DNA from: Centroberyx gerrardi
Taxonomy: Eukaryota > Chordata > Actinopteri > Beryciformes > Berycidae
Reading direction: 5' to 3'
Length of the DNA: 64,000 nt
Assembly (NCBI RefSeq): GCF_048128805.1
Contig: NC_136020.1
Coordinates: 5,116,501 to 5,180,500, forward strand
The position numbers and the translations under genes are program-made. This document shows positions 1 to 64,000 of this stretch, piece after piece (position 1 is the first letter of the stretch; every line of letters begins with the position of its first letter). Under the pieces are notes generated by a model. That model searched no databases. It had not been told where the DNA came from and was given only the letters and a program-made list of their open reading frames with translations.

Positions 1-1006
1 CTGCCTGTAGTCTACGTCTCATCTCCTCTCGTTCCTCCGTCACCTCCTTCAGCCGCGCCTCGTGCTCCATCCCCCGGTCTACTGCCTGCAAGGTTTCCAG
101 CAGAGCCGCCCTTGAATCTTCTAACCTGAGCTCGGCGTCCTGCCTTAGATCTCTCTCCTCCTGGAGGAGCTTCTGGAGCTCACGTAGCATGATGGCGTGG
201 TCGCCCTGCTCTTGCTCTCTCTCGTGCTGCTGGGTGATGACCCGGGCCTTGCTCTCTGCCAGCTGGTCCTGCAGGAACTGCAGCTCCGCCTCATGCTGCC
301 TTCTGCCTTCCTCCAGCCTCCCCTGCAGCTCCTCCAGCTCCTGCTTCATGATCCTTTTGTCAGCCTGGAAGCTGGCCTCCATCCTGGACTTTTCCTGAGT
401 GACCGTGGCCAGGGAGCTGGTGAGGGTGGTCAGCTGGGTCTTCAGCTGGATGACTCTCCTGTCCACCTCTGCAGTGTTTGTGCCGGACGGAGGAGTTGGC
501 TGCTGCTGGTCTGGTCCTCCACTACTGCTGGAGCTGATGCCGCTCTCTGATCCACTAGCCTCTGGATCAGACCTGTGGGCCAGTGAGGGCGCCCCAGGAC
601 CAGACGCTTCTCCAGGCGTCCCACCATGCTCCTCCTCAGCCTGCTCACCTCTGTTGGTCTCGCTGGTTATGCTGGTGGCCGTGTCTGCAGAGGCGGCCGT
701 GTCGAGACTGTCCTCGCTGTGCAGGGAGCAGTGGTCGTCTGGGAGGTCAGAGGTAACGGAGGCGGCACCGGCCTCGCAGAGGGAGCCGTCATCGCTGCGC
801 TGGCTGAGATCGACCTCCTGAGACACAGTTAGCACCTTCAGACTGGCCTCCAGAGCCTCCTTCTCCTTCAGCAGGCTCTTATATGCCCTGACCACATCCT
901 TGAAACGGGTTTGGTACTGGATCAGTTGCTTCTTCTGAGATTCAATAGTGTCCACAAGCTCTTTCTTGCTGGGGCCGCCCCCAAAGCTCATCCCAAACTT
1001 CTCCAT
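1..1006 (-). CDS. gcc1: GRIP and coiled-coil domain-containing protein 1, N-terminal part
   Basis: Golgin of the trans-Golgi network; in the family a C-terminal GRIP domain, outside this window, binds ARL1. The ATG is at 1006 on the minus strand and the frame is open for 335 codons to the window edge. The protein begins MEKFGMSFGGGPSKKELVDT, close to human GCC1, followed by VVRAYKSLLKEKEALEAS, a serine-rich linker, then coiled coil containing LKTQLTTLTSSLATVTQEKS and ITQQHEREQEQGDHAIMLRE, both recognisable GCC1 blocks. The whole seen coding part is one exon, as in human, where a single exon carries the CDS. It is head-to-head with ARF5, its neighbour in human too. Only the 5' part is present, so the GRIP domain cannot be checked. 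Confidence 0.93.
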   Translation of the reverse strand, partial: MEKFGMSFGGGPSKKELVDTIESQKKQLIQYQTRFKDVVRAYKSLLKEKEALEASLKVLTVSQEVDLSQRSDDGSLCEAGAASVTSDLPDDHCSLHSEDSLDTAASADTATSITSETNRGEQAEEEHGGTPGEASGPGAPSLAHRSDPEASGSESGISSSSSGGPDQQQPTPPSGTNTAEVDRRVIQLKTQLTTLTSSLATVTQEKSRMEASFQADKRIMKQELEELQGRLEEGRRQHEAELQFLQDQLAESKARVITQQHEREQEQGDHAIMLRELQKLLQEERDLRQDAELRLEDSRAALLETLQAVDRGMEHEARLKEVTEEREEMRRRLQA

Positions 1007-1723
1007 GACTTGGCTGGAGTTATAGCCAAAAGAAAGTTTTGCTCAGCTTGGATGCATACTTATTGGCTCAATTGCAAATCCACCAAAGAAGGAAATATGA
1101 CGTGCGTACTTAACTGAAACAGCTCATGATGTAAACCTGAAGGTGAAAATAGCTGCCATTCTGGATTGGTGAAACTGGATGGATGAGTTCCTGTAACAAC
1201 ACATTCTTAGTCAGATAATTGGATAAGATGACACAAAGCAATTAGTGTAGTGTCCCACAGTATCCCATATGTTAAATGCCATATGGGATACTGAAAGACC
1301 AGACATACCCATTAAGTAATCCATTTCATGTGAGATGTTTCTCTGTTTTTGCCTCGCAGACTTACATTATTTGTGCAAATGCTCTATGAGCTCCCAAAAC
1401 AAGGGATAAGCACATTACTCCCAATGCCACCAGAGGTGTAGCATTAGTGTGTATAGTTTGGCTCATGCAGACAAGAAGCAACTAGGTATTAAGTTCGTTT
1501 GAAGATTATCATTGGCCTTAACGTTATCTACATTTTCGATGTGCTCCAAGATTATTTGGCACGTCTTGGCTGTATATAAAATATCCTATAGGCCCATTTA
1601 TATCACAGATTAAAGAGACTAGTTCTTGACAAAATGCACAAGTGGGCATGCTGTACAGTACATTAGCTAATGTTGAGGTTAGCTAGTACTTATCATGTAC
1701 GCAAATGGAGTTTAAATTCTTAC

Positions 1724-2050
1724 CTTTGAAACATATGTCAGCCGTACCGGTGTAAGCGGTGTGTTGAATTCAGTCAAGCAAGAAGTTCTTCCAAGTTGAT
1801 GCCGACAAGCAATATCTTTGTGTAGGTTAATAAAGTTAAAGAGAAAGCTAAAGCTGAGAATCAAATTATAGAGTTTCAAGTGGTATTTGGATGTCAGCAA
1901 ACGGCAGCCATGTTGGTCTGAAGCGGAACTGGAGGCGGGGCGACAGAGACTGTAGTCCGGTACAAGTCTCATGATGCATTCAGGTGCTGCCGAAAATATC
2001 GTAGTTACGAGGGTTTTCTTTGTGGCCTGACAGTATGTTTGGAGTGTTGA
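1724..2050 (-). other. gcc1: Probable gcc1 5' untranslated first exon
   Basis: A strong minus-strand donor (CAAAG|GTAAGAAT) lies at 1724/1723. A plausible acceptor (CTGTTTCAG) lies near 1112, so an untranslated first exon spliced to the coding exon fits the two-exon human layout. The upstream end is a guess. An open frame across this stretch resembles no known protein and is not called coding. Confidence 0.4.
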
Positions 2051-2585
2051 CACCTCCTTGGTTGACACAAGCATGGAAGCAACGTTTACCCTACTTGTGT
2101 GTGATAGTGCCTAAATAACCAAAACACCAAAGTAACAAAATAAAGAAAGAAACTAAAATAAAGAAATAAACTGACAAGACTGCACAATGCAGTCAGTTTT
2201 CTGTAGAATTTGGTTGCTCCTGAGTTCATGTTATATGGCAAACCAAACATTACAACGTCAGCCACAAGCGAGACATGTAGCCTAGTTGTGTCCTGCCATG
2301 GTATTTTAAGTGAGTTGTGGTCACAGATGAAAGACGTTAATTTTGTTTGTTTAGTTGAAATAAATATATAATTCCCTACACTTGACTACATGTATTTCCT
2401 TGTTAGTGACTTAAGAATTCGGCATGTCCAAGAAAACGGGGTTAATCGCAAAAAAAGCCCTATTTACCGCCTGGAAGCTGTTATGTACTGCATTTTCAAG
2501 TCGGACCCTCGTATATACCGTCTTTCATCTAGGACCTAAATGCAGCATTGGTGTTTCTGCTTTTAATAAAGTTGAGTGAAAGCAG

Positions 2586-2593
2586 TGACGTCA
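2586..2593. promoter_or_regulatory. Perfect CRE palindrome in the gcc1/arf5 shared promoter
   Basis: TGACGTCA, the full cAMP-response element (CREB/ATF site), lies 166 bp before the ARF5 ATG. It is in the roughly 550-bp interval between the two divergent transcription units. The site is seen directly; use by CREB/ATF is inferred. Confidence 0.5.
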
Positions 2594-2758
2594 ATTATTC
2601 CGCGTTGGCCTGGACGTGGCACCGAGGAGGAGCTGCGCCCACTCTGTCCGGCTTGGATTAGAAGATCAACTCAGCGTTGCATTCAGCCCTATCGATTGCT
2701 AACATTTACTGTCATTTTTTAAAACCTTCATCGCCGCCCAACTGGGATCTGTCACAAC

Positions 2759-5821
<3,063 letters not shown>

Positions 5822-6545
5822 AGGAGGGGAGAAGATGAGAGGAGCAGGACCGGAGCGAACGAGTGATTTGAACATGCGCAGGAGGAGGAAGATGGAAGGA
5901 GCAACCAAGCAAGTAGAGGAGGAGGAGGAGGTGCAGAATGGAGCATTTCATCAGAGGAAAATGCAGACTTTGTTTTTTTGTTGTTATTTTTATTTTTTTT
6001 TAAATTATAAGTGTGTCTGTCCAGTAGAACTTGCAGTCATGGACTTTGCGCTCAGTTCCTGTTCTGAAGCCTTTTTTGTTTTTTCTCCACCATTCTCCCC
6101 CTTTTATTCCCTGTGTTGTCACTGCAGATGTTTCTTAGACTGTTTATATCTTTATTATGTTTCTTTCTTCATGCCTCCCAACTCCCTTGACAGTAAAATG
6201 TTTTAATTTGCATGTTTTAACAAAGAGAAAAATCATAAAAGCGGAAATCACTTGACGGTTGTGCTGATGTTGATTGTTATGGAATGGGCGGTAGGGCTTT
6301 TAGGGGTTGGGGGGGCGGGGGTGGATTGGGGTAGAGAGGGGTATGGAGAACAGGTTGTTGGTGTAACAGTCTTCGGGGAGGGGGGAGTGGTTGGCTTGGG
6401 GTTCGGGTCCCTCTGTCCTCTCCCTGGAAGGCTGACTGACTCATTCCAGAGAGCCGAATCTGAAGGCCAGTTCCATTCCTTAACAATGTGAAGAATGCAG
6501 GACATTAAGTATTTTCAAGGGCCATTGATGCAATAAAAGTGTCTT
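5822..6545 (+). other. arf5: arf5 3' untranslated region
   Basis: Non-coding, with A/T-rich and G-rich tracts. It ends at an AATAAA signal at 6532-6537 followed by a T-rich stretch. Open frames in both directions here match no protein family and look like chance. Confidence 0.75.
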
Positions 6546-7170
6546 TTTTTTTTTCTTCTCAACTGTTGAATTGTTGTCTGCTGACATTTTTCTGGTATGG
6601 GCTCGTGGCATGGATTACATGTAACACAACATTGTTAAAGAACTTTTTTAAGGTTGTCTGCTTGTAACCTCACTGTAGCATATGATATAGTTCAAGCTTA
6701 CATTTGCAGATGGGTTGTCCCAAATGAATATTTAATTTTCTAAAGGAAGATGTGGCAGAAAACTACAGAGCGGTCACTTACTTCCACACTAGTTTAATAG
6801 CTACATGACTAATTTGAGTATAAGGCTGTTGAACTGTGGAAATACTATTGCGTAAAATTACGTTTAAAGGATCAGTCTAGCAGTAAACTAGCACCACCTG
6901 TGATGAGAACACTGGCCTACCTCTGGCTTTGTGTATTTCATTGGTTTGCGGCTTCATTATCTGTACTGACAGGCAGTATGTGACAGCTCAATAAGTTATG
7001 TTAATTTAATGAGCTATGGAGCTATAAGTGGTTTGTCTATATCTGTATTGTTTAACTATTGGAGCAAAATGAGCTTCAGTTGAGTCGTCAGCAAACCCTT
7101 CCCATCAAGAACGTTTGAGTAGCAATCCCAAATTGACTTACTGATAAAGAGATCAGGGCTTTAAACCAAA
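6546..7170. other. Intergenic, nothing recognised
   Basis: This is the space between the converging 3' ends of arf5 and lamtor4. I see no gene, RNA or clear repeat in it. Confidence 0.5.
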
Positions 7171-7649
7171 TTTTATTCAATCACACAAGAGGTTTAAATA
7201 GCCAGAATCAACTTTTGAAGATACACTGTATACACAAAGCATTTAAAATATAGGGGGGGGGGGGAGAAAAATGCAATATGCTTCTCAATTATTTAGTACT
7301 TACACAAGTTTAACAGATATTCACTAAGCAAACTGTTGGCATTGGGTTAGAAAAGCCGTCAAGAGTTATCCCAAGCAAGCTGAAGTGAATCTGCTGGACT
7401 GTAGGAGAGCAGGGCGGCAGCATCTGCTCATCACAGCCTCCGCTATAAACAGAGGGTGGATGGGGAGTGATCTTGTCTGCCTTCCATACACAGGCAGTGA
7501 CGATGCCGTATGCCGGATCATGCCATTCATCATCATAATCGCTGCTGTAAACCATCTTTTGCGAGCGAGACGTCGTCTTTCGCCGTACACGAGTCCTGTG
7601 TGTGTGTTTGTGAGCGGCAGTTCCCTTCGCGTTCTTCCTGCGTTCACGG

Positions 7650-8860
7650 TTAAACGTTCACGGGCTCTCGCTGGTTGTTCTGACGCTTCACCACAAACAC
7701 TTTCTGACCGGATACCGTCACCGTGTACACAAAATCTTCCAACATGACTGTGGAGGTAAAACATTAGGTTAGGTCAGAGCAGCACATGCACGCCAGCACC
7801 CTGAACTTAAGGACAGTATGACTGTATGATACTCACTTTAAATATGGGGCATGTGAATGCCTTCATCTAATTCAGGGTCCAATTCCAGCAAGTTAAACTT
7901 TTACTGGCTGAATAAAATGTCAAACCAATTTCACAACACACATAAAGCTGAAAAGCTGTTGGAATACAGGTCTGCATAATTGGGTTGATTTATTGGTGGA
8001 AAAATAGAACATCGGGCAAAAATTTTTAGGACCTCTGCAATTGCAATTAAGACTTGAAAGGGTGCAATTAACTGCTTAAGACCTTTCAAGGCCTTGAAGA
8101 CATTTCAGACTTGCAGAACCTGCAGACACTCTTTCATTATTTTCTCCCATTAATGCCATATTCAGAGTATTCACACAGTTCACACACTGTTCATATTTTA
8201 TGAAACAGTGAAGCATGAAAATATGGCTCCTTCCGCATAGAAAATAGCCTCTGGATAGTAACATCATATCCTGTGTATGGATAAATGTGTACTTTTTGGA
8301 CAATATATCAATACATACCTCATAAATGTTCACATTGCCACATTTTCTCTCTAAAGAAATTGTCCACGGAGGTAAGTAAATGGTATAAGACATTTAGGCC
8401 AGAGCTCTTTCTGTCTGTGACATGGAGATCTGTGTAGGAGAGTGGCTGCATTGCATTCTGGTCTACTGAGGCTGCTGTCAGTGGAGAAATTGGTCTCTCT
8501 GCCTCTTCTACGATGGATTTCTCCCTGTATGATTGTTGAACGTTTCCTGGTGCAAAATGGCACCTCTAGAAAGAAGCCCTCGCTCTTTGATTCTGAGGGA
8601 CTGACACCAAAACCTGACGTTTACCGCTGATGTTTTAGATACCTGAAACATTTCTGTTGTCAAAATACATTGTAGCTGCATTGGAAATATCTCACTGTGA
8701 CGTCATATTGTCTATGTTTGGCCAGTTATCCATGGGAATAAGAAAAATACACCACAAACAACAGATTGGACCCAGAAATGCAAGGTACATTGCCAATACC
8801 TTTTAAAAACAGTGTTATTGTTTTAGGGTGGATTTTCCCTTTAATGACCTTTTGACCCTG

Positions 8861-8902
<42 letters not shown>

Positions 8903-10044
8903 GGTGCAATAACTACGCTATTTATAATGTACATGAAAGCTTAGTCTCTGTGTGTGTGTTTTACCTGACATCCGTTTGAAGGGTGGCTCAGCAGAGCCAT
9001 GTAACCGAAAGCGGCACGCTGTCCGGACCATTTGCATGATCACTCCTGCTGTGTGTTCATCATTCTCCAGTTCCCCTGCAGACTGAGTGAGTGAGAGAGA
9101 GAGAAGAGAGAGGAGAGGACTGACACATCGCCATCAACTGTCACACTGCGGAGGGCTGCAGATGAAACTGCTAACGGAGAGCAAGTCACACCAAACCCCA
9201 TTTAAAAGTAATGCGATTTGACGTTGCCTTACTTTTCCGCAACCATACATACTTTATAACATACAACTTAAGACCTTTTGCGAATCGTTAAAGTCCACCG
9301 GTAAATTCGGTTTATATATGAGCCACCAAGCATCGCTTTATCTGAAAATGTTTTTCAACTTTTAGAATTGGCTCACGGCCCGCTACCGCCCTCCACAGTG
9401 TATTTTGGTGGAAGCGGATTGCGGGACTAACAGACAAACAAATACTATAAGTTAGAACTTTATTGAAATAAGAGCTACTTCGTGCACTGGATGTATGCCA
9501 CATTAAAGAGTAGCTCCTAATGATTCGTAAAATGTCTTAAGTCATGTTGCGCCCGGTATGTACGTCTGCCAATAAGCAAGGACACATTCAATTGCAAGGC
9601 TTTTTAATGAGGTTCGGCGTGATGTTCTCCATACGAGAGAGAGCGCGGCACGTATCAGGGCTAGGGAGCAACTAACATTAGCCAACTGTAAATATACAAT
9701 CACTGCAAAGAAGAACAGGCAGGTTGAGCAGGAGGACCAGGATACTGACTCACCGCCAACACACCGTCTTCACTGATGACCAGGTAGCCCAGCTGGTCAG
9801 GTATCCTCTCCAGACCCTGCGTCAGAGCCGCTGTCGTCTGAAAACAAACAACCAACATACTGAAAGCTGTTAGGGCGCTAACTAGCAAGCTAGCTAAGTG
9901 TCAGCTTCTTCTTACCATGATAGGCACAACAACACTATACACGACATAACTACTACGGATGGCGCTGACTTCTAAAACGAGTTATTATCTTTATAACGAT
10001 AATACATGTCAAACATAAGGAATGGAACTGGCAAAACTCACCAT
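7650..10044 (-). CDS. lamtor4: Ragulator complex protein LAMTOR4
   Basis: Subunit of the lysosomal Ragulator scaffold, which anchors Rag GTPases and mTORC1. Four minus-strand exons: 10044-10042 (ATG only), 9837-9754, 9082-8965 and 7747-7650. They join in frame to 100 residues; human has 99. Sequence starts [20 protein letters not shown], then [40 protein letters not shown], and ends [21 protein letters not shown], matching human LAMTOR4 block by block. The initiator exon codes for methionine alone and is followed directly by GTGAG. The 3' UTR ends at a minus-strand AATAAA at 7177-7172, after a G11 tract near 7252. Divergent from atp6v1f with 619 bp between start codons. Confidence 0.95.
8860..8902. 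repeat. (ATA)n microsatellite
   Basis: About 14 uninterrupted AAT/ATA triplets in intron 3 of lamtor4. Confidence 0.9.
9215..9590. mobile_element. MITE in lamtor4 intron 2
   Basis: Ends carry inverted copies of a motif like CTTAAGACNTTTTNCGAATC (near 9265 and 9525-9545), with weaker similarity outward. The core includes GTGAGCCAATTCTAAAA on the opposite strand. A second copy in opposite orientation lies in atp6v1f intron 1. Ends are approximate. Confidence 0.55.
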
Positions 10045-12831: not shown

Positions 12832-13230
12832 TGGCCATGGGTCAGAGGGGGACAAGCAGTTCTCATGTCTCTGCTGACCCTGGCCTGTGCTGTCCAATGC
12901 TAGGAAGCGGTAAATATTTGGACAACATTGGGAAGGCCTCATTAGTCGTCCCCGGTGGACAGGAGCGACCTTCCGCTCTCCTTCGGTCGGCTGAGAACAA
13001 ACACGTGTGGGCGCCGATCTGGGAATACTGGCCAGCTCCACATGACCTTAGCGGAAAAGCTGAATCTAGATCTGCTGACAAATTCGGAGATGGTTAGTCG
13101 ATACCAGCCTTAGTGGCCTTGGTAAGGCTTGTGGGGTATGCAGAGCAGATTATAAATGGGCTCCAAACAGAGTGAGTGTTTCCTTGGTTAGATGATAGTC
13201 CTCTCTCTCTCTGTGTTTCCAGAAACCAGC

Positions 13231-15270
13231 ATGAAACCTGTGTGGTCTCTCGGTGTGCTCCTGCTGGGCTGCGCCTTTGGGATCCCCGTTCCTTCACAGA
13301 ATGACACCAGGTAAGGCGTTTATCAGCTCTGAATACACATCTGAAGACTGTTTCGTTAAGTGATAAGCACAGCAAGAGATAATCACACCTTGATGAGGCC
13401 GTGCGTGAGGGCAAACGTGCCTCCGGTGTCTTATCGCTGCTCGCTCTCAGTCAATACATCGAGCTTGGGATTTCAATACTGACCATGGAGATATGGTGAG
13501 GCATGCTATCTCTTCTCTGTTCTGCCCGTAGACAACATGATCAATACATGGTCAATCTTCCATCGGACAACAAAGGGGACAACTCCACAAGGTGAGTCTT
13601 GAGGAAAATGAAGTATCTAATGATGGTAAAGGCAGTATAATCTAATTAAAGATCCTGTTTTCTCTGTCCTCTCTCTCTCTCTAGGAATGACAGCTCTCTC
13701 CAGATCAATGGCACAATGGACAATTTCACACAGTGAGTGTTGAGTATCATAACACCTATACAGTAATTGTGAATGCCCTGGACTTCCAGATGGTGACAAG
13801 AATATGACAAATAACACATGTCGACATTGTAATTTACCTCTAAGTACTATAAATGTTCAGAGGAATTGTGCTACTTGATTGCATTCCCAAATACTTGATG
13901 TATATAGAAATGCCTGCACTATAAGTTTAAGTTTTTGTTGGGAATGGTGGAATGGAGTTCATGTCATGGGTTAAAACCTGTATTATTTTCAAGAACAAAA
14001 AAACCCAAAAACAATCCCTAACATTCCGGTTATGAACAGTTGAAATGTGTCTTTTTGTTGTCCTGTGTCTATTCAGTTTCAAGCATGCTTTTATTCATTT
14101 CAACAGGCTCGTCCAATCCAATGACACTTGGAATGACACTGGCATAACTCCTTTCATGTAAGTAGATTCATAAACCAGCAAGCAAATTCATTTCTCACTC
14201 ATCAGTAGAGTAGATGCTGATGAAATCAGGTTGAAACTCATGGCTGTTTATCATTACAGGACTATCCTACCAATGCCAAACTTGTAAGTGGTCTTTACAT
14301 CTAAATGATAATGTTCAAATGTACACATACAGTAGACAGATTAATGTTGCCTTAATTTGTTTTTAGTAAAACTGTTTCTTTTTTTGTCTGTTGCAGCGAA
14401 GGCGTTTCCTCAGAGTATGTATCACTGCATCACTTTCATACCTCGTGTTTCATGCAGATTTATAGTTATGCAAACATCTCTTGGAGGCAGAGCTGCTGTG
14501 GAGGCAGAGATAATCTCATTGGTTGAGTGAAACCTCAGTGGGTGGAGCTAAAGAAGCACAGTATTTCTGGCTAAGTCAGAGATGGCGGATAATTAAAAAA
14601 AATTTAAAGTCTGGTAATGTAGACTGAAGCCCAGTGAAAAAGGCGAGGGGTTAGAGAGGAGGTAGCTAATATTATGAAGCCTAGCGCTCTGCTACTAACT
14701 GTAAAAATGCAGTCTAGCCAGTTATCTCTGTTAGCTAGTTAGCCTAACTGACCTTCCAAGTTCAAACTAGCCATACTAGCCTACAGCTATCTAGGTAAGC
14801 TAGTTAGCTAGCTGCTGACCTTCCAACATCATGAATGCCATGGTCATGAATGAATGAAAAAATGTCATGGCCACTTTATATTTTTATTTATATTTTCACC
14901 AGAGTTCCTTCTTTGCCATTCAAGTCTGCCAGTTAGCTAACATGTGCTTTTAAAAATGGTGCTTCTTTGGCTCCACCCACTGAGGTTTAACTCAACCAAT
15001 GAGATTATTTCTGCCTCCGGAGCAGCTCTGCCTTCGGGAAATGTTTGTAGAACTAAAACTCCAATTTGCATGTTTAATAGTGAAGTCCCAGCCTTCTTTC
15101 TCTCCACCCCCCTGCCTAATCTATTGCTTCCCTCCCTCAGTGTGCCAGCTCTAGTTGTTCGGAGATGTGTTCTCTCCACCTGTGTGACTGATCACCTAGC
15201 TTCCTCCTTGCAGCGGGGGGATGAGGTGGCAGGTGGCGCCACCAAAGATCCCTTCGGCATGGGCAAATAA
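13231..15270 (+). CDS. Candidate calcitonin/CGRP-like prohormone, isoform ending in last exon 1
   Basis: Not a gene I recognise. Exons 13231-13310 (after a CAG acceptor at 13222), 13532-13591, 13685-13732, 14107-14157, 14260-14283, 14397-14414 and 15141-15270 join in frame, every intron in phase 2, to 136 residues. Residues 1-18 form a signal peptide (MKPVWSLGVLLLGCAFG). The pro-region carries seven N-x-S/T sequons (NDT, NST, NDS, NGT, NFT, NDT, NDT). The last exon gives VVRR, then CVLSTCVTDHLASSL, and ends DPFGMGK. Cleavage after Arg101-Arg102 and C-terminal Gly-Lys processing would release a 32-residue amidated peptide (103-134). It has a C-x4-C ring and leucines at +5 and +9 after the second Cys, as in CGRP (CVTHRLAGLL). 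The gene structure is seen; the hormone role is inferred. Confidence 0.65.
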
Positions 15271-16836
15271 AGAAATGGAGTAGTCTCAGGCCATGCAGCT
15301 GTTTGTTCTTAATCACAGCCAACATCACATCACAATAACTGCAGCAGTATCACTTGCTCACATAGTTTTGCTGCAACAGAAAACATTTCTTTTAATAGGG
15401 CTGCAGCATGAATTCTTATTAACTGCACCGAGGTCTGTTAAAACTGCAAACCTGTCAATGTGTCAAAGATTGACAATATTCCTTGTAACACTGTTAGTTA
15501 CTTGCCGCTTGAATCTAAAATGTGTGCTAATAAACATCATGTATAACACTGACTTGTGGAATTAATGTATTCAAGAAAAAGTGAACAATGTGACATTACT
15601 TTAGACTATTGATTTCAATTCACTCAACACAAATAGCCAATAGTTTCATGAAAAAAACGAAGGAAAAAGAGATGTTTGTCGGTATTAACATTCCTAAACT
15701 AATCTATATATACTGTGACTATGAAGTCCAAAAGTAGACGTGTTATCAGCTGTAAATAGAACAGAGATCTTTCCATTCTTGGGTGAAAAATAAGACAAAA
15801 ACAAGGGTCTGCTCTATCTGGAGATCCTCTTCACTCAATTTGTGTTGTACCCACACAGGCAAAAAGGGATCCAGGGCCCTGCTGAGGACTGTGGCTCCAT
15901 ATGAGTAGAAAGAGCTCAGTATTTGGTGGAGAAGCAGGAATACTGTTAACATTTATCACCTGCGCTGTTGCTCTTGTACAAACAGGATAGAAGAGCCGGT
16001 GCAGGGGTGGAACGGTACGGACGGCAACTCGACACACACCAGGTGAGTCCTTCTGGCTTTGGGAAGTGAAAGGCCTAATGAGAAAATATACAGACATCAT
16101 ATTACAGTCAGGCATCAAATCAGTTTCTGCTGTTTTTGTTATATCACTTGCTGCTGCAGGAACGGACTCCAGCAGTCCACTTTTGCTGACACTGGGTTTT
16201 CAGGGTAAGTAGGGTCGGGAATCACCTAGGGTTATTTAGTGCCAGTAGTCACTATTTTGAAATTTGACCATTTTCAAGTCAAAAAAATGACAAGTATTCA
16301 GTGTTTCCCCCTGAAGTTTATTCTTGTCAGGGTGGAAAAGCCTCTGAAACAGCATTTAGACCATCATGGGACACTAAAACTCTCCACTGAAACCCAGACT
16401 AATGAAATTCTTTTAAGGTTGGCAGCTCTTCAAGGCAAGGTGACCCACCTCACCTATGGTAGGGAAACTCTGGGATACATTAGGCCTTTAAATGAAGAAT
16501 TAATTTACAATTCAATGAATAAATAAAATATGCAAAGAAAAATACATTTCATTGCAGGTTTTATGTGGTCAGGGAGGAACCGCCATCATATCGGCAGTGA
16601 ACAACATGACTGGACGATATCTGATATTTAAAAAAGGCACATGTGTCAGTTTGAACGCTTTGTCTCTATGCTTCAGATTTCTTTTGGATCCTCCTCCCAG
16701 GATCGTTGGATACGCTGCACCCCCGGGTTGCCAACTTAGTATCTGTGCCTTGATGAACCTCGGCCATGACATGCAGTTAGGGGGGGATGAGAAAGCAGGC
16801 CGGGCGACCTCCGACCCCTTTGGACACGGCAAGTGA
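13231..16836 (+). CDS. Candidate adrenomedullin-like prohormone, isoform ending in last exon 2
   Basis: Shares the first six coding exons with the shorter isoform, then uses 15986-16042, 16160-16204 and 16701-16836, again all phase 2, to give 172 residues. Two further sequons (NGT, NST) lie in the first of these. The last exon encodes YAAPPGCQLSICALMNLGHD and ends AGRATSDPFGHGK. Cys138 and Cys143 form the same C-x4-C ring, Leu148 and Met152 keep the +5/+9 spacing, and Gly171-Lys172 is an amidation end. CALMNLGHDMQL resembles adrenomedullin-2 (CQVQNLSHRL), and DPFGHGK resembles the DPQGYGR end of fish adrenomedullin-5. No dibasic site directly precedes the ring, so the mature N-terminus is unclear. 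It could instead be two tandem genes, but the continuous phase argues for one. Confidence 0.6.
14480..15062. mobile_element. MITE with about 100-bp inverted repeats, beside a hormone last exon
   Basis: The left arm (GGAGGCAGAGCTGCTGTGGA, then TAATCTCATTGGTTGAGT and ACCTCAGTGGGTGGAGC) recurs inverted at 14955-15045. Internal sequence matches the arf5 intron-4 copy. It ends about 80 bp before the acceptor of the first alternative last exon at 15141. Confidence 0.75.
15529..15534 (+). terminator. Poly(A) signal for last exon 1
   Basis: AATAAA, 259 bp after the TAA at 15268-15270 and before the next hormone exon at 15986. It allows transcripts to end after the first alternative last exon. Confidence 0.6.
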
Positions 16837-16893: not shown

Positions 16894-16899
16894 AATAAA
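16894..16899 (+). terminator. Poly(A) signal for last exon 2
   Basis: AATAAA, 58 bp after the TGA at 16834-16836. Confidence 0.65.
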
Positions 16900-17428: not shown

Positions 17429-19667
17429 ATGGATCCTCAGATGGAAAACTTTTGGAAGGAGGCGATACTGAAGGAAAACATGACCAGGCTGAAATGGTTT
17501 CAGCATAACTGGAGCAAGAAAACTGGAAACAACGCGGTCCAAAAAGTTGGCGAGAGGGGAATGGGAGTGAAACTGCCCAAAATTAATGCACATCAACCGG
17601 AACGTGACACCAAACCGTCCACGACGGCTGCCTCCACAGTTCCTCAGAGGAAGAAGATGGAGGAGGCAGCTGGGTGGGAAGTGATGCGCCCCCCGTCAGG
17701 AAACACCCGCCAGGTCCTTTATGAAGGCCTTTCCAAAGAGGAGACTGGCCCCCACAAATACCTGCTGCTGAGGAAAGACAAGAGTCCAGAGGAGAAGTAT
17801 CTCTATCCCATAACCACCAACTGGCTGTATGGATGGGGTCTTGGTAAGATGATCGATTCTCACTCTAATGATTATACTTTGGGCTACCTATGGACTTTTA
17901 AATACTATCCATCTAGTACATTGTATGTTACGGCATGCCTTTTTATCATGGCTCTTGTACTGTTGTCCTTTAGGATATCAAATGATGCAGTCATTGAATT
18001 TTAAGTATACACTGCTTTAATTTAAGGATCTTGTCTATAGGAAGAACAGTCATAATCAGTGATGCAGTGGTAAATAAAAAGTCAGAGGTCATCATGAGGC
18101 AGCAATCACCAATATAAACACAAATCAATTATGTTTTCAGAAAAGCCTAAAAAGGTGGGTAAATTCAACTCACGTCACCGCTTTTATTTCCTATTTACAC
18201 AGATAGAGATTAAGTAAAGCAGCTGTTCTTTGTAGGTTCTGTCATTCAAATGTTGGACTTTCTGAAGTTTGGGGAACATGAAATTGAGCCACACCATAAA
18301 AAGTCTCATTGCAAACATTTTGGAAGGTCATGATATTCACAAGATAATGAATAGGAATGTGACGATGAATTTAATGTCAATTTTTTTAAAGATCCATCCA
18401 AGCTTAAAATGAGATCACATTGCTTTTAGAATAGAATAGAATAGAATAGATTTATTTCGAACATGTTAAAAAAAACAAAAAACAAAAAACAAAAAACAAA
18501 AAATATATATATACACATACGTAAGAAAACAAAACAAGAATAACCAATAAAATTAACAGTAAACTTATACAACAAATTCTCAATAAACAACATAAATAAA
18601 TATTACATGTCCGAAATGGAGTAGGAAGAAGTAAAATACTTATTTGGTCCTACGCCTTTGCTAAGCTTAATCAATGAACTTACTGTTTATAGTCCAACTA
18701 TCCACCCCAGTGTCCATCATACACAACTTAAATAATTACTTCTATGTTCATCGTCTTTATACATAATCAACTTGTAGGTGCCCATCCGGCATGTCCCAAC
18801 ACTCACAGAGAGAAAACAAAAAAAGAAAAAAACCCCAAAACAAAATCATCATCATCATCAGCGAGCGTCACATTCTTGAGACAAACAAGGCCCCTTCCTC
18901 ATCCCTGTACCTCGCGAAAATCATTTTTTTGTACATCTTCTTAAACTGTTTGATATTCTTACTCTGCTTGAGTTCTACATCAAGACCATTCCACAAAGTC
19001 ACCCCACAAATTGTAATACACATACTCTTAAGATTGGTACGAACACAACGTTTTTTCAGATTCAGTTTTCCTCTTAAGTTATACCCCCCCTCTCTGTCTA
19101 AGAACATTTTTTGTATGTTGCCAGGAAGTAAATTATTTCTTGCTTTGTACATTATTTGTGCAGTCTTAAATTCCACCAGATCCATGAATTTCACAGCATG
19201 TGTCTTTAAAAACAGCATGTTAGTGTGTTCACGATATCCTACATTGTTTACTATCCTTATGGCTCTTTTTTGTAGTATACATAATGAGTGTAAGGTGCTT
19301 TTGTAGGTGTTACCCCACACCTCCACACAGTAATTCAGATACGGTAATACAAGTGAACAATACAGAGTGTGCAACGCTTTATGATCCAAAATATATTATC
19401 TTTCATATCTTTAAATGAGTGAAGAAAATGTATGTATAAGAAAATAAGTAAGCAAATAGATAAACAAGGAAACAAATGCCTGATAAAATAAAACAAAATT
19501 GAATAAAACTTCAGATGTGATGTTAGCTTTGTGTTCCACTCCACACAGGGGACGTGAGCAAACCATGCGTGCCCAAACATGGCCGCCACATCATCGTGAG
19601 GGAAAGCTTTTACCGCAAGAACGGCATCTTCCCTTCCATCACCTCCAACTCAGACACTGTGGGATAA
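17429..19667 (+). CDS. spmip1: Sperm microtubule inner protein 1 (ATP6V1F neighbour protein)
   Basis: Known in mammals as ATP6V1FNB/SPMIP1, a protein bound inside sperm axonemal doublet microtubules. Two coding exons, 17429-17843 and 19549-19667, join through a split glycine codon to 177 residues. Begins MDPQMENFWKEAILKENMTR; the middle has LYEGLSKEETGPHKYLLLRK, then YPITTNWLYGWGLG. The second exon ends RESFYRKNGIFPSITS and NSDTVG. It is basic and lacks signal peptide or membrane segment. Identification rests on the FWKE start, the WLYGWGLG and FYRKNGIF blocks, and position next to atp6v1f. The intron holds a LINE fragment. Poly(A) signal at 19689-19694. Confidence 0.82.
18430..19390 (-). mobile_element. 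3' fragment of a non-LTR retrotransposon (LINE)
   Basis: A 173-codon minus-strand frame (19389-18868) reads LYCSLVLPYLNYCVEVWGNT, then ILQKRAIRIV, LVEFKTAQIMYKARNNLLPG and GVTLWNGL, typical of the region after the RT domain in jockey/L2/Rex-type LINEs. The element 3' end at low coordinates runs into a short AATAG pentamer array (18430-18450), a usual microsatellite tail of such LINEs. RT palm and endonuclease are missing, so it is 5'-truncated. Clade uncertain. Confidence 0.75.
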
Positions 19668-21829: not shown

Positions 21830-22766
21830 TTAGATGCACTGGTGTCTCTTCAGTTGAGTTGAGAGGCTGAAACTGTTCCCACATTGGTCGCAGTGGTAGG
21901 TTTCTCTCCAGTGTGAATGCGTAGATGTCTTGTTAGGTTACTTAAGTCTGTGAAAGTCTTCCCACATTGGTCACAGAGGTAGGGTTTCTGTCCAGTGTGA
22001 ATGCGTAGATGTCTTGTTAGGTTACTTAAGTCTGTGAAAGTCTTCCCACATTGGTCACAGAGGTAGGGTTTCTGTCCAGTGTGAATGCGTAGATGTATTC
22101 TTAGGCTACCTGACCAAGTGAAAGTCTTCCCACATTGGTCACAGTGGTAGGGTTTCTCTCCAGTGTGAATGCGTAGATGTTTTGTTAGGTTACCTAACTC
22201 TGTGAAAGTCTTACCACATTGGTCGCAGTGGTAGGGTTTCTCTCCAGCGTGAATGCGTTGATGTATTATTAGGAAACGTGACCGTCTGAAACTCTTCCCA
22301 CATTGGTCACAGAGGTAGGATTTCCCTCTCGCGTGAGCGAGTTGATGCTTTGCTAGGTTACCTGAATTACTGAAAGTCTTTTTACATTGGTCACAGTGGT
22401 AGGGCTTCTCTCCAGTGTAGATACGCTGGTGTTGACTGTATGAATCTGACAGACTGAAACTCTTCTCCCATTGGTCACAGTGGTTGGGCTGTTGACAGCA
22501 GTCAGGTTTGGGTCCGTTGGTGTCTCTCTGTTTCCATAGAGAAAGATATAAAAACAGAGATCAGGACAGAGAGATAGATAGAGAATATGCGTGTGTGTGT
22601 TGTCTCAAATTACCATTACTTGATGAATAGCTTTGTTTATACAACTGTTATATATATATAAATATCCCACATAATATATGGCATCATATGTTAACTGTGA
22701 TGTCATAGCTGTATTATTTCATACAGACCTGGACAACAGCAGCGGCTGATGTACTGGGCTGAGGGC

Positions 22767-27791: not shown

Positions 27792-27811
27792 TTAGATAGA
27801 TTACATCAGTT

Positions 27812-30539
27812 TTGCTGCTCACAACAATGCCTGCAATGCCGGATTTGGATGACTTAATCAAACTCTACTTTAGACTTTCTTTCAGTAACAAAGAAATACT
27901 TGCAATTTTAGCACATAACAATCAGATAGTAATAAGTGTCCGAACTTTAAAGAGAATTTGTAGAAGACTTGGTCTGTTCAGAAGGAGGAACCAGTCTGAC
28001 TTGGACGAAGTGCTGGCTTTTGTCCAACAAGAGATCATGACCAATGGACAGATGCAGGGTTACCGTTGGCTACATCTTCGTGCAGTTCAACGGGGATTTG
28101 TTGTCACAAGACACCATAAGACGCATCATCAAATTGGTTGATCCACAAGGTGTGGAATTAAGACGAGCATGACGCTTGAGAAGACGCCAGTACAGCTGCA
28201 GAGGGCCAAATGCGCTTTGGCACATGGACGGCTACGATAAGTTAAAGTCAAGATGAAATGAAAAATGCATTTTTAACCCTTTTAGATCACATCCCCGGTC
28301 ATATTGTGCACCAATTTAACAATGTATGCCAAAAAAAATACAAAAAATCAATTTCTTTGTATTCTTATATCAAAATCCAATCATGTTTTCTTCCTGTAAA
28401 ACAAAATATGCAGTGTGCTTACGTAAGCATGAACCAACCAATTTCAACCAATAATATCATGACATCCACCCATCAATCATTCTTCAACCTCTAGCTAGCC
28501 ACACCGGTCATATAAAACCGCACTTCACCGTTTCTGGGTCGTAGCTGACAGAGCAATATGGAGAGAGATAGGAAGAGATGTGTGTTTGGATATCAGTGGG
28601 CAAAAACTTTGTTTTCATTTCCAAAACAATGTCGCTGAGGTCTAATTCATTCATCTCTACCTTGTCCTCCTTCTGATCTAACAACAGGTGAGGGAGGTGT
28701 GTGTGGAGCCAACAGTCCTCTGTAGCTCCGTTTCGCGCTAAACTCTAAGCCCCGCCCACTGTTTAGTGGTCTAATCAAATGCGAAGGATTTGATTTAAAT
28801 CCCTCTTGTAACTGGAAATACGTCACAGTACAGAAGCTAAAGACGCTCTAACTTCTGTTTCAGTGGGACTTTAAAGCCCTATGGCATTGCCATCAATGGC
28901 TGTATAGATGGTTTTAGCCGCTATGTGTTATGGATGGAGGCCTATACCATGAACAGCGATTCTAAAGTAGTTACAAGTTACTTTATCAAAACAGTTTCAT
29001 GCATAGGTGGATGTCCAGAGAGGATTCCTGCAGACAGGGAAAATGGTTGTGTAGAAGAAATGCAGATGTTTTTGCGGAGAAACCACACAGACAGTTTTGC
29101 AGGGGAGAGAAGTTTCCTTTATGGAAGAAGCACAGCAAACCAGCGCATCGAGGGATGGTGGGGTACCCTCCGCAAACAGAGTGCGCAGTTCTGGATGAAC
29201 TTATTTCAAACTTTCCAGGATGATGGGCACTTCACAGGAGACTTTTTGGACAAAATCTTATCCAATTCTGTTTCCTTAATCTTGTTCAGGTAAAAAATCT
29301 TTCCTCGCCTTCTGAAATGAGTCAGTAATAAAAGTAGTATAAGTAATAATAATACAATAGTGTTAATAATAATATCATAAATTATAATAATAATAATAAT
29401 TAAGTATTATAAAAATATTCTTTGTACATTTTTCTATAGTGCTTTTTGTTTTTCATAGAAAATCTCAAGGTGCTCTACAAGCCAAAGTCACGTGAACATT
29501 ATTTCCTTTTTAATACTTTGATGGCATTCAGTTTTATTCATTATACCAATGGGACCAACTCCACCTTTCTCAGGACAGGTGCATGGGGAACATTTGTTTT
29601 TATTGTCACATAGCAGGCCTGGTGGTGCAGGGCAACATGCATCTTATACATGGTTTGAAATACTGGGGAGCCAGCTCCCCTGAAAGCAATACAAGTATAC
29701 ATTTGGGTGGTTCTCTAAAATTGCCATCATCTTAAATATTTCCTAATGTAATTTGTATTCTTTCATTACTGAAACTAGATTAAATATATTATTGTTGTCC
29801 AACTGATGGCGAGACAAGGTGATCCCCTCGTGAAACCAGTCCGATGCAGGTTGGTGCTCCTACTAGAGGCAGCACTTCTTCGCCAAGCCACAGAAGTTGC
29901 TGTAGGTTGTATTGGAAATGCGGAATCACAGCGCACTGACTGTAAAGTATTAGGCTATCAGTGCAGCACCGTTCTGTGTGCACGTGCTGTTTGGTGGAAG
30001 TGCTATTGTCTTATTGCTGCTTAGTTTTACATTGATTATTGTTGACGTTAACGAAAATGCGTGCTGTGTCTGTTCACTATTGACTTAGCTGATGGGGGCA
30101 TACAATGACAACGCAGCAACCTAGGCCTTAATTTAGACAAGCAGCAGTTACGTAGTACAAGACCTATTTCCCATGTTTGTAGTCTGTATTTACTGTGCTT
30201 CTTTTTATGCAGGATGAACTTGATGAAGTCGTCAACACATGGAATTCACACAAAATCAGACCAAGATCAAGTGATGACGCGGTGTCGGGTCGGCCAGTTG
30301 TGATGTACTCATTCCCAGAGTTGCACAGTGCTGAGGATAGAGTCAAACCTATTACCATGGAGGAGGTCACTTTGTGTAAGGAAGAGTGTACTCCCAAAGG
30401 CCAGTTTCTGTGCGATGAAACTGTTTTTGAACTGTGTTGTCTACTGATGGAGGAGAATGGATGGGATGCTCCAGCAGATCCACTTGCTGCAGCTGATCTG
30501 TACATCATGTTAAGAGAGGAAATACAGCAAAATATTTGA
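27812..30539 (+). mobile_element. Decayed integrase-core (DDE-type) element
   Basis: Recognisable pieces in order are an N-terminal region (LDDLIKLYFRLSFSNKEILA, then RTLKRICRRLGLFRRR), a GYRWLHLRAVQRGFVVT block, an integrase core (INGCIDGFSRYVLWMEAY and HTDSFAGERSFLYGRSTANQ, then RIEGWWGTLRKQSAQFW), and a C-terminal exon at about 30213-30539 (DELDEVVNTWNSHKIRP; GRPVVMYSFPEL). They belong to a widespread fish and invertebrate integrase-domain protein family. A GT donor after the core and an AG acceptor before the C-terminal block fit an intron of about 920 bp, which also contains a short TAA-rich tract. The copy is broken at a few points and carries a separate 625-bp insertion. Whether the parent was a free element or a domesticated gene is not clear. 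Confidence 0.7.
28246..28870. mobile_element. TTAA-flanked MITE inserted in the integrase-type element
   Basis: TTAA occurs directly at both borders (28242-28245 and 28871-28874), and the termini AGTC/GACT are inverted. The TTAA duplication is the hallmark of piggyBac-like and Kolobok-like elements. It splits the conserved DKL-KPYG stretch of the host element. No transposase inside. Confidence 0.75.
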
Positions 30540-33009: not shown

Positions 33010-36000
33010 TCAAATGTTTTTATTGAATTTTTCCAGACAGAAAAAACACATAACATAAACCACTTTTCCCACATGAAGACACATCACTAAATACACTAAA
33101 CAAACCAGAAAATAAACAAAACCAGACAATAACAATAACAGACGATGCCTACTTCCTAAGGTTCACATCATAACCCCATTGTGGGAACAGAAAATACAGG
33201 CAGATCATTTTACTCTTTTGCAGAATATTTGGAATCAAAGTAGTCCAAGAATGGTTGCCAGACTTTAAAAAATTTATGGACAGATCCCCGAGTTGAATAT
33301 TTAAGCTTTTCAAGTTTTAAATGAGCCATCACCTCTCCAACCCATTGTTTATGTGATGGGGGTGTAACAGACTTCCACTTGAGCAGGATGAGGCGTCTAG
33401 CTAAAAGTGATATAAAGGCTACAGCGTCAGACTGAGCCACGGAGAGCTTCAGTCCACTTGGAACCACTCCAAAAATTGCAATTGTGGGGTCAGGGTGTAT
33501 TTCTTTGTCACAAATATAGGAAAAAGTCTCAAAAATGTCAGACCAAAAAGAGCTCAAGGTTGAACAAAACCAAAACATATGAATAAGTGTGGCTGGGTCC
33601 CGGTTGCACCGAGAGCAAGTCGGATCCAATTGCGGGTACATTCTGGAAAGTTTTTCTTTGGAGAGATGGAGTCTGTGAAAAACCTTGAACTGTAGTAACC
33701 CATGCCTAATACAAATAGAGGTTGAATGTATTCTCTCAATTGAGTATCGCCAAACATCATCAGGGATCTCCCCACCAAAGTCTCTTTCCCATAAATCTTT
33801 CAGATGATCAAGAGAAGGTGAGGTTGCTGTTAAGAGTGTATCATATATTCTAGAGATACATGCTTTTTCTGATGGATCTAAATTTACACATTCCTCCAAC
33901 CAACTACCCGGTGGCTGGGATGGAAAAGAAGTGACATTTTCTTTTACAAAATGGTGGACTTGCAAGTACCTGAAAAAATGTGATTGTGGAATATCATACT
34001 CCCTTACCAGTTTATCAAAAGAAATGAAAACGTGATCTTTGAACAGATCATTCACACATTTCAACCCCCGTCTAAACCACAATTGGAACGCTGTATCCAT
34101 GAGTGATGGTGTAAATAATGGGTTAGCCATGATTGGCATGGAGGGCAGAGCCTGTTTGAATCCAAAATGATTCCTAAATTGGGCCCATATCTTCAATGAG
34201 CCCTTTATAATGACGTTACCCTGTAATCCCGGCTGCTTTAATGGAAGTGGAGCGCATACCAAAGAGGCAAGGACACCGGATTACTAAAATATTGCTCCAT
34301 GTGAGTCCAAACTGGTCCATCTCCCTCACGGTACACAGAAACCCAATAGGCCATTTTGTGAATGTTGGCTGCCCAGTAATAATAGATCAAATTTGGCAAC
34401 GCCAAGCCTCCGTCCTCTTTATAACGTTGTAGAAAAGCTTTCCTTATCCTGGGAATACTCTTATTCCAAATGAAAGTACTTATACATTTGTCTAACTCCT
34501 TGAAATACAATTTAGAAAGAAAGACAGGAATTGTCTGAAACAAAAACAAGAATCTGGGCAAAATTGCCATCTTAACAGAATTTATTCTCCCAGCCATGGG
34601 CGGAAATTACGGGGGGGACAGGGGGGTCCGGACCCCACCTTCCTGGGAAAAACAGAGAGTTGTCCCCCTCAATATATCATTGTAAACATAACTATATCAT
34701 TCTAAATAATATAATAATATGCATTGAAAGCACTTGTGCTAATTATAGACACAAAACAATGCGTTTTTAAGTTTCGAAAGATTGCACGCCCCCCCTCCCC
34801 CCTCCCCCCATGCCATCCCACACACTTTAGCCCTCGGTACGAGTGTCTGTGGAGGATCTCTGGAAGTGTGTCAGTGGTAAGAAGCTACTTCGCAAATGTT
34901 AACTTAAAACAAAGGATGTGTCAGACATTTTTCTTTACTTCTACCACTCAATAGAATAAAACACATTCACAATTGTAACCAGACTACATTTTGTTCGCTC
35001 CGTTACCTCGCGGTTGAATCTTGTGCGTCAGCGTGTTGGTACGGAGCAGCCGCGTCTCCTAATGCATGTATGTGTATGGAGGCAGGAGGTCTGTCCACAA
35101 TTAAAATCCTCATAACTCACTGAATTTTCGACCGATTTTCAAGCGGTTTGGTTTGTTACAAATGCCAGACATGTATTTATGATACAGGATACTTGGTTAA
35201 ATTAAAATGCGGGTTTTCATACCAAAATTATCTTTTGTAGATGGTAACAGTAATATTTCTATAATATAATATTTAAGATTAACTTACCCTACGTAATTAG
35301 GTTCTAAGTATATTCTTTTTTTCTTACTGCGTGTAAAATGGCTGCCACTATGTAATTTTGTTTATAATTTTGGAAATAAATGAAGACTTAATTCATAAAA
35401 AAGACATAATTACAACAAACAGAGATCTGCTTTTTCGGGAAAACTAAATCTAATTAGGTATATACTGTATTAGCTTTAGTTAAGTTAATGGGTGTTGCTT
35501 CTCTCCTACTACTGTAAATAACCTGCATGCTGTGTGTGTGTGTCTGTCTATTTGTCAGCCAGCCAGGTCAGTTAAAATGGCAGAGAAAAGAAAAACAGAC
35601 ATCCGATCATTTTTCAGTGCACCGAAACGCCAAGTAGAAAGACCCCAGTAATATCAAATGCAATTTGATAAAATCTTCATAAGAAAGGAATGAAGTGCTT
35701 ATGGAAATGTTTCATAATGGACCTCTATATACATTTAATACAACAGTACTTTTGGCGGCACCTTTGGTGTCCCCTTCAGGAATTGCTCTTGAGAAATTTT
35801 TCTGTTTATTGTCCCCCCCAAAAGTGAAAGGAAATATCCGCCCTTGCTCCCAGCCAATGATATGGGGAGTGCAGACCAGCGAGTAAGATCTAATTTAGCT
35901 TTCTCCAGTGCAGGCTTAAAGTTATGTCTAAATAAATCCCCATACTTGCGTGTGACTGAGACCCCGAGATAAGTAAAACTGTCTTGAGTCACTTTAAATG

Positions 36001-38294: not shown

Positions 38295-39153
38295 AAAATC
38301 TAATACTTAAGTTTCAAGTTAATTTGGATTGTTTGGAAAAAATGTTGGTGATCTCCTGTAAGGACTTTGAAGTAGCAATCAAATGAAAACAACAAAAAAA
38401 AAAAAGAGAAAACCAAGTACAAAACAGAGCCATAACATAACACACATATACATGTCTACACAAACCTGAATAAACAACGCCCCCTGCAGGACACTCCCCA
38501 AATGAGTGGCTGCCCTGGCTCCTAACTGCTCACTACTGTACTGCATAACACCACTAATGAGTCTGAGCCTCTCCTAGAACTATATAAAGTTTGGAAATCA
38601 ATAGCTTACTTCCTTCAAAAGAGAAAAATGTAAAGAGCATAGCTTACTATAATACCTCACCTAGGCCTACAACTGAAAAAATAAAACATAGGGGTTAACT
38701 GCTGCATGGCTTGTATTTAGGTTAAATCTTGGTATCCGTGCCCCTTCACGTCACATACCTACCAAATCAAGTAAACAGAATATAATCTACATATTGTGTC
38801 TGGTTCTTTCAGTCTAAAGTGATGTTGTGTACTTGGGTTAATGCTGCAACTCTGCATTAGGTAATGAATTTCTTGCTGTACATGGCAATATCCTCCTTGT
38901 GTAACATACAGTATATGCAGTTATGCCTATTTGATCTCTCAAGACAGATGCCCTTAGTACTACTGGACATGAGGGCGGCAGCTTCTACTGCCCTTATCAC
39001 AGTATGGGGGAGGGAGAAGAGTCATCATGCCTAACTCATTTCCCTGGCAAATGTGGCCACACTCTGCTGGAGCCACACTTACTTGTAGTATTATGTATGG
39101 ATGTTTGAGGACTCCTCAAGAAAGACTCTGCTCCCCCACTGTGTGTTGTCCAG
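38295..39153. other. Intergenic, probable LINE 5' flank
   Basis: Immediately upstream of the LINE ORF2 there is an A-rich stretch and no recognisable ORF1. Nearer to zdhhc11 nothing is recognised; its promoter or an untranslated exon may lie here. Confidence 0.4.
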
Positions 39154-63900: not shown

Positions 63901-64000
63901 GCTCTCCTGCTTCACTCTGCTCTCCTGCTCCACTCTGCTCTCCTGCTTCACTCTGTTCCACTCTGCTCTCCTGCTTCACTCTGCTTTCCTGCTTTACTCT
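54996..64000. repeat. 18-bp minisatellite, over 9 kb, reaching the window end
   Basis: Unit TCTCCTGCTCCACTCTGC and its TCTCCTGCTTCACTCTGC variant, about 500 copies. Occasional 10-bp partial units (TTCACTCTGC or TCCACTCTGC) and rarer variants (TTTACTCTGC, CTGTTTCACT, CCTTCTTCAC). Pure C-type blocks at about 55212-56600, 58370-58600, 59510-60100 and 61370-62370 alternate with T-type or mixed blocks. 15 of 18 bases are pyrimidine on the plus strand. The unit is a multiple of three and has no stop in any frame, so very long frames open on both strands (one spans about 2500 codons, SPAPLC/SCSTLL repeats). These are not treated as genes. Confidence 0.97.

Follow-up and report, generated by a model that had tools for sequence, protein, structure and literature searches.

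Calcitonin (CT), CGRP, amylin and the adrenomedullins (ADMs or AMs) form a much studied family of drug targets. The extract available of one account describes a teleost complement of two CT/CGRP genes, amylin and five AMs, and gives CALCA as the precedent for alternative peptide exons, CT versus CGRP (PMC6283891). A sea cucumber gene, AjCTP1/2, likewise gives transcripts for different CT-type peptides by alternative splicing, although this echinoderm gene has other sequences and a predicted amidated Pro, as far as the excerpted source goes (PMC12638048). Here we analyse 64,000 nucleotides of the Centroberyx gerrardi genome (NCBI RefSeq assembly GCF_048128805.1, contig NC_136020.1, positions 5,116,501 to 5,180,500; hereafter the window), in which a first-pass annotation had proposed a new prohormone gene of this family between atp6v1f and spmip1. 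Judged from its sequence, with a probability of about 0.83, this is a functional calcitonin/CGRP/amylin/adrenomedullin prohormone gene, the ninth locus of the family in this fish. An open in-phase exon chain, likeness to the family, agreement in gene structure, selection on the protein and the existence of an extra locus are the observations on which this reading is based. No description of such a gene was found in searches of the open-licence PMC literature, a result that does not exclude databases and other journals.

The candidate comprises ten plus-strand exons (13231-16836) between neighbours that Pfam confirms as first named (atp6v1f as ATP-synt_F, E 2e-29; spmip1 as SPMIP1, E 8e-34). 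When joined, the exons are stop-free, have GT/AG ends and meet in phase 2 at every junction, so that the claim of a single common phase holds for all ten. Exon 1 (13231-13310), an open exon with the start codon and a leader beginning MKPVWSLGVLLLGCAFGIPVPSQNDT, ends in the donor CAG/GTAAGG (top 0.2% of the window's GTs) and lies about 80 nt downstream of a TATAAA motif (13151-13156, plus strand), which may be the TATA box of the promoter. Exons 2 (13532-13591), 3 (13685-13732) and 4 (14107-14157) encode a spacer with N-glycosylation sequons, one of them in exon 2, and the spacer continues through two less certain micro-exons of 24 and 18 nt, exon 5 (14260-14283; donor in the top 4%) and exon 6 (14397-14414). 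Because all internal exons are phase 2-2, skipping of a micro-exon would keep the frame. Counted by eye in the translation, the precursor part common to both isoforms carries seven sequons. Intron 6 also holds a MITE-like (miniature inverted-repeat transposable element) sequence of about 600 bp (14457-15061), whose 110-nt inverted ends are 85% complementary.

Two alternative terminal exons complete the chain. Exon 7 (15141-15270), entered in phase 2, encodes VPALVVRR and then CVLSTCVTDHLASSLQRGDEVAGGATKDPFGM-GK-stop (peptide 1), and an AATAAA motif, the putative poly-A signal of isoform A, stands at 15529-15534. Exon 10 (16701-16836), also entered in phase 2, is reached through exons 8 (15986-16042; donor in the top 0.03%) and 9 (16160-16204) and encodes a product ending in APPG CQLSICALMNLGHDMQLGGDEKAGRATSDPFGH-GK-stop (the adrenomedullin-like peptide 2), with the AATAAA motif of isoform B at 16894-16899. 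Isoform A (exons 1-7) thus has 136 amino acids and isoform B (exons 1-6 and 8-10) has 172, with a common leader. Scored with splice-site matrices against the 3588 GT and 3594 AG sites of the window, 15 of the 17 splice sites come within the top 4%. The signal peptide proposed in the first-pass annotation corresponds to a hydrophobic leader in exon 1, judged by hydropathy alone (maximum 2.54), but the same loose rule finds 34 leader-like ATG exons (overlapping variants included) on the plus strand of the first 54 kb, and the leader by itself is therefore not specific.

Both terminal exons encode C-x4-C, a predicted disulphide ring within the family's N-terminal Cys spacing of 4-5 residues, with Leu at +5 and Leu or Met at +9, and both stop directly after Gly-Lys, as had been noticed; the amidation signals (Gly plus a basic residue) read GMGK-stop in exon 7 and GHGK-stop in exon 10, and a C-terminal amide is predicted for each. 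Their conserved tails agree at 13 of 17 residues. Peptide 1 is a predicted 32-mer with Met-amide, immediately preceded by Arg-Arg, a dibasic site that the first-pass annotation had not mentioned. In the whole window only these two exons show C-x4-C followed by 22-40 residues, Gly, a basic residue and a stop; among 100 simulated sequences of 54.9 kb, from which the terminal satellite was excluded, 4 such hits arose, and 2 of the sequences had two or more. Over 35 aligned codons exons 7 and 10 have 19 amino acids in common, and the proportion of synonymous differences (pS 0.77) is far above that of non-synonymous ones (pN 0.37), which indicates conservation of the protein as synonymous positions neared saturation. 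This order was reversed in 1 of 2000 bootstraps; with the 17-codon tail taken by itself, 9 of 2000 did so.

The family membership proposed for peptide 1 is supported by profile comparison. At E up to 10, isoform A matches PF00214 and no other Pfam family (E 0.0057, 17.6 bits; 18.4 bits for peptide 1 alone); the ADM2 and ADM3 exons of the same genome score 25.3 and 25.1. A family hidden Markov model (HMM), built from six known peptides (CGRP, amylin, ADM, ADM2 and two CTs) with the candidates left out, placed the exon-7 open reading frame (ORF) first among the 1936 window ORFs of at least 20 amino acids (16.4 bits). The exon-10 ORF came fourth (7.5 bits), two unrelated ORFs ranking above it with 10.3 and 8.8 bits. 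Shuffling supports both peptides: the score of peptide 1 was reached by none of 5000 shuffles, with Cys fixed or free, and that of peptide 2 by 0 and 2 of 5000 in the two shuffle modes, with some 10-20% of shuffles falling below reporting level. The segment after the ring of peptide 1 has a helical moment of 0.47, compared with 0.44-0.55 in six known peptides, and 62 of 2000 shuffles were as high, consistent with an amphipathic helix. In the PDB, peptide 1 had no match, and peptide 2 found first an unrelated chain (E 0.66) and then ADM2 (E 1.2). Pattern hits in viral contigs yielded no confirmed relative (0 of 100), and Rfam gave nothing at the gathering threshold in the window.

Gene structure agrees with these matches. 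In all ten known peptide exons of this genome, and in exons 7 and 10, the stop-free acceptor that scores best ahead of the ring Cys is in phase 2, a comparison that uses predicted exon ends and in which the two CGRP exons have weak acceptors. From acceptor to ring Cys the distance is 22-25 nt in CT1, CT2, CGRP1, CGRP2 and amylin and 40-298 nt in ADM1-5; exon 7, at 25 nt, equals CT1, CT2 and CGRP1.

Genome-wide searches covered 778.9 Mb in 278 contigs, with the window on contig C24. PF00214 at E up to 10 gave 14 rows, of which 12 were read as known family exons and named accordingly: CT1 and CGRP1 with their shared exon (C1, 14.42 Mb), CT2 and CGRP2 with theirs (C4, 6.44 Mb), amylin (C24, 17.43 Mb), ADM1 (C1), ADM2 (C24, 19.67 Mb), ADM3 and ADM4 (both C4) and ADM5 (C20, 16718651). 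The other two rows match profile positions 1-30 within the two CT/CGRP loci. Eight other family loci (two CT/CGRP genes, amylin and ADM1-5) are thus found elsewhere in the genome, in line with the earlier proposal of a gene additional to the known members. The candidate was rejected as the ADM5 orthologue, and because ADM5 lies on another chromosome it is a ninth family locus and no mislocated known member. As a query against the genome, the exon-7 peptide recovers just exon 7 (E 6.5e-22) and exon 10 (E 0.02), two candidates having passed the first look; to the sensitivity of this search, the gene has a single copy. The same genome holds RAMP genes (7 rows, 6 over the cut-off). The mature ADM2 and ADM3 are identical across the peptide, their precursors being different.

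The branch affinity of the two peptides was assessed against nine peptides of this genome, the identical ADM2/ADM3 counted once, with z from 1000 shuffles. Peptide 2 is closest to ADM5 (z 6.4), followed by ADM1 (5.7), ADM2/3 (5.2) and ADM4 (4.1), each reached by 0 of 1000 shuffles, and scores at most 1.9 with CT, CGRP and amylin. Peptide 1 scores 4.9 with amylin, 4.0 with ADM5, 3.8 with CGRP2, 3.5 with CGRP1, 3.4 with ADM1 and 3.3 with ADM2/3. For scale, pairs of accepted members from different branches (CT, CGRP/amylin, ADM) range from 1.2 to 5.6. By these sequence scores peptide 2 is adrenomedullin-like, with ADM5 as its closest relative, and peptide 1 is intermediate between amylin/CGRP and ADM5. 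The first-pass annotation had placed peptide 1 near CGRP, to which it is indeed similar although amylin and ADM5 score higher, and peptide 2 near adrenomedullin-2, where the branch was right but ADM5 and ADM1 come first.

ADM5 is accordingly an instructive comparison for peptide 2. Besides this best match (16 identities) it shares a best-scoring acceptor in phase 2, an IRF gene nearby and a similar tail, D-P-Q-G-Y-Gly-Arg in ADM5 and S-P-Q-G-Y-Gly-Arg in ADM1 as compared with D-P-F-G-x-Gly-Lys in the candidate. In contrast to the candidate, a Tyr-amide rather than Met or His is predicted for ADM5, which lies on another chromosome and shows one peptide exon in the family search instead of two. 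The CALCA-type genes on C1 and C4 resemble the candidate in having two peptide exons per locus with phase-2 acceptors. They have Lys-Arg directly before the CT ring and one residue before the CGRP ring, and the candidate has Arg-Arg directly before the ring of peptide 1. Unlike them, the candidate has many spacer sequons and two peptides with one common tail, both C-x4-C, and lacks a CT-type C-x5-C ring or Pro-amide. Amylin (IAPP), the best match of peptide 1 (TCVT..LA..L) and again phase 2 at its acceptor, lies 12.3 Mb away on the same chromosome; its Tyr-amide follows a longer tail, and no second peptide exon is listed there.

For transcription, splice choice, processing, glycosylation, amidation and receptor, we infer the following scheme. 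One promoter and one leader exon would feed an N-glycosylated spacer. Splicing of the transcript to exon 7 would go with polyadenylation at 15529, and splicing that bypasses exon 7 in favour of exons 8-10 with polyadenylation at 16894, a choice of the kind made by CALCA. Isoform A would be cleaved after Arg-Arg to give a 32-residue CGRP/amylin/ADM5-like peptide with no N-terminal extension. Isoform B would give an adrenomedullin-like peptide with an extended N terminus, as in adrenomedullins, if processed either at a lone Arg of exon 8 or C-terminal to the Arg present in a longer exon-10 variant. An alternative phase-2 acceptor 24 nt upstream could provide that variant. In both, a carboxypeptidase would take off Lys and Gly would become the amide. 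The most likely receptors of the peptides would be CLR or CTR, paired with RAMPs. If the gene is truly used, it is a new member of a hormone family, with two hormones made by choice of the last exon, and a ninth locus of this kind would add ligands to the CLR/CTR-RAMP system and help to establish in what order early duplications set CGRP and adrenomedullin apart.

Several observations weigh against a functional family gene. The 17.6 bits of isoform A are below the PF00214 gathering score of 22.3, the curation threshold; isoform B has no Pfam match; and the candidate is not among the 14 rows of the genome search. Peptide 1 is only weakly like ADM4 (z 2.6), CT1 (2.1) and CT2 (1.9). The glycosylated spacer has no relative in Pfam or the PDB, and two splice sites are weak, the donor of exon 6 (top 12%) and the acceptor of exon 8 (top 7.8%). 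Exon 10 has 28 nt between acceptor and Cys, CT/CGRP-like spacing although its peptide is ADM-like, and no dibasic site upstream of the ring. The helix region of peptide 2 is not amphipathic, with a moment of 0.21, a value reached by 752 of 2000 shuffles. Because of this helix result peptide 2 is called adrenomedullin-like here on its resemblance to that branch, and the family assignment is made on peptide 1.

The predicted terminal residues, Met in peptide 1 and His in peptide 2, also speak against the assignment. In the excerpted sources Pro, Phe or Tyr is usual in known members (PMC6002491, PMC4504005), as it is in the family peptides of this genome, and is not part of the family definition in the extract of PMC6283891. 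According to parts of PMC4504005, CGRP and AM are anchored by the terminal Phe or Tyr; the residues that matter most for the binding of AM include Gly51, Tyr52 and the amide, and the C-terminal residue is packed against a Trp shelf of CLR. The P-x-G-x-amide frame is preserved in the candidate, whose predicted Met or His end may reflect either a different pocket preference or weak binding. The candidate would offer a natural test of the role of the residue that bears the amide.

Three other explanations were weighed. In the first, which we consider unlikely, exons 8-10 would form a separate gene that has a promoter and a leader exon of its own and arose by tandem duplication of an exon block. 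The likeness of exon 3 to exon 8 (reached by 26 of 1000 shuffles) and of exon 4 to exon 9 (10 of 1000; 15 pairs tested) is weak and hints at such a duplication of the block; exon 1 also resembles exon 8 (17 of 1000), the spacer block taken whole gives 67 of 2000, and exon 7 has its own poly-A signal. Against this, 15271-15985 contains eight ATG exons with a phase-2 donor, and where the leader is hydrophobic the donor is poor; no usable one-exon leader upstream of exon 8 was found in this interval, two-exon leaders not being searched for.

The same weak splice sites, sub-threshold Pfam score, weak amphipathicity and missing dibasic site of peptide 2 would fit a formerly functional member losing its function, peptide 2 first, and making few or no hormones. 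We hold this to be quite improbable, as ten exons have neither stop nor frameshift, and Cys, Gly-Lys and stop are intact in both terminal exons. The excess of pS over pN speaks for past constraint and is compatible with recent loss. Very improbable is a secreted glycopeptide of another kind, such as an antimicrobial or structural one, resembling CGRP by convergence: the seven sequons and the unusual C-terminal residues would suit it, but not the phase-2 peptide exon with CT spacing, the spacing of ring and Leu, the profile and shuffle tests or the ADM-type P-x-G-x-Gly-basic end, and no other Pfam family matches either isoform, nor any PDB entry isoform B at E up to 1.

A published bacterial artificial chromosome of Senegalese sole carries gcc1, dennd6, atp6v1f, irf5, tnpo3, opn1sw1 and calu and, in the excerpted text, no family gene (PMC6579814); since spmip1 is missing from that list too, the list is incomplete and the absence is weak evidence. 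In C. gerrardi, an IRF gene lies 208 kb from the candidate (chance about 0.006) and another 18.8 kb from ADM5 (chance about 0.0005), counting 11 IRF loci after exon merging and with contig C94 dropped as a copy. The idea that the two regions go back to a block duplication depends on this proximity; as IRF genes were picked after irf5 had been seen in the sole list, it is post hoc and a lead. Around ADM5 on C20, MAPK7-like, serine protease-like, hemopexin-like and Pax6-type exons were recognized by reading, which fits the acanthopterygian Pax6.2 locus with Mapk7, Prss22, Mmp25 and Irf3 in the extract of PMC3554528. No EF-hand or Ras exon emerged when 200 kb around ADM5 were scanned for motifs. 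On C1, where CT/CGRP and ADM1 occupy 14.4-15.1 Mb, position 18.0 Mb holds an IRF gene and position 19.2 Mb Pax6-type exons. A homeodomain query, with 150 of 263 candidates scored, found split Pax6-type exons on C1, C4, C7 and C20, and within that scope none of the Pax4/6-type exons expected by analogy with ADM5 near the candidate (C24, 5.13 Mb), although a divergent Pax4 could escape. With this result and the post hoc choice of IRF, a shared origin with ADM5 is only a lead.

A teleost duplicate of AM5 is said to be undetected in the part of PMC6283891 available, and the corresponding part of PMC3554528 names nosip/rcn3 as the sister locus. Identity of the candidate with that missing copy was dropped, as it is not at the nosip/rcn3 locus; should it prove to be a sister of ADM5, an older one is more likely. 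It is tempting, though doubtful, to go further and see in the candidate a hitherto missed vertebrate hormone gene, an old sister of ADM5 beside irf5 whose CGRP-like and adrenomedullin-like peptides would join the two halves of the family, and whose Met- and His-amide ends would indicate a new receptor pocket or RAMP pairing.

The remainder of the window contains other genes and repeats. To the left of atp6v1f (1-9900), GCC1 (minus strand), an ARF4/5 gene (plus) and LAMTOR4 (minus) were recognized by eye; the GCC1-like and LAMTOR4-like pieces had no Pfam match. Long interspersed nuclear element (LINE)-like ORFs lie on the minus strand at 36702-38306, with an endonuclease domain by Pfam, and at 35738-36724 and 18871-19395, where likeness to reverse transcriptase was seen by reading only. 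An ORF with an integrase-core (rva_4) domain (28841-29290, plus) adjoins another at 27800-28138, whose sole Pfam match, RWP-RK, is sub-threshold (18.3 versus 29.3 bits). The minus-strand ORF at 21853-22560 encodes a C2H2 zinc-finger protein with six fingers matched, and the window ends in a 9-kb tandem array (54999-63993) of about 504 copies of an 18-bp unit, with 86% matches and open in several frames.

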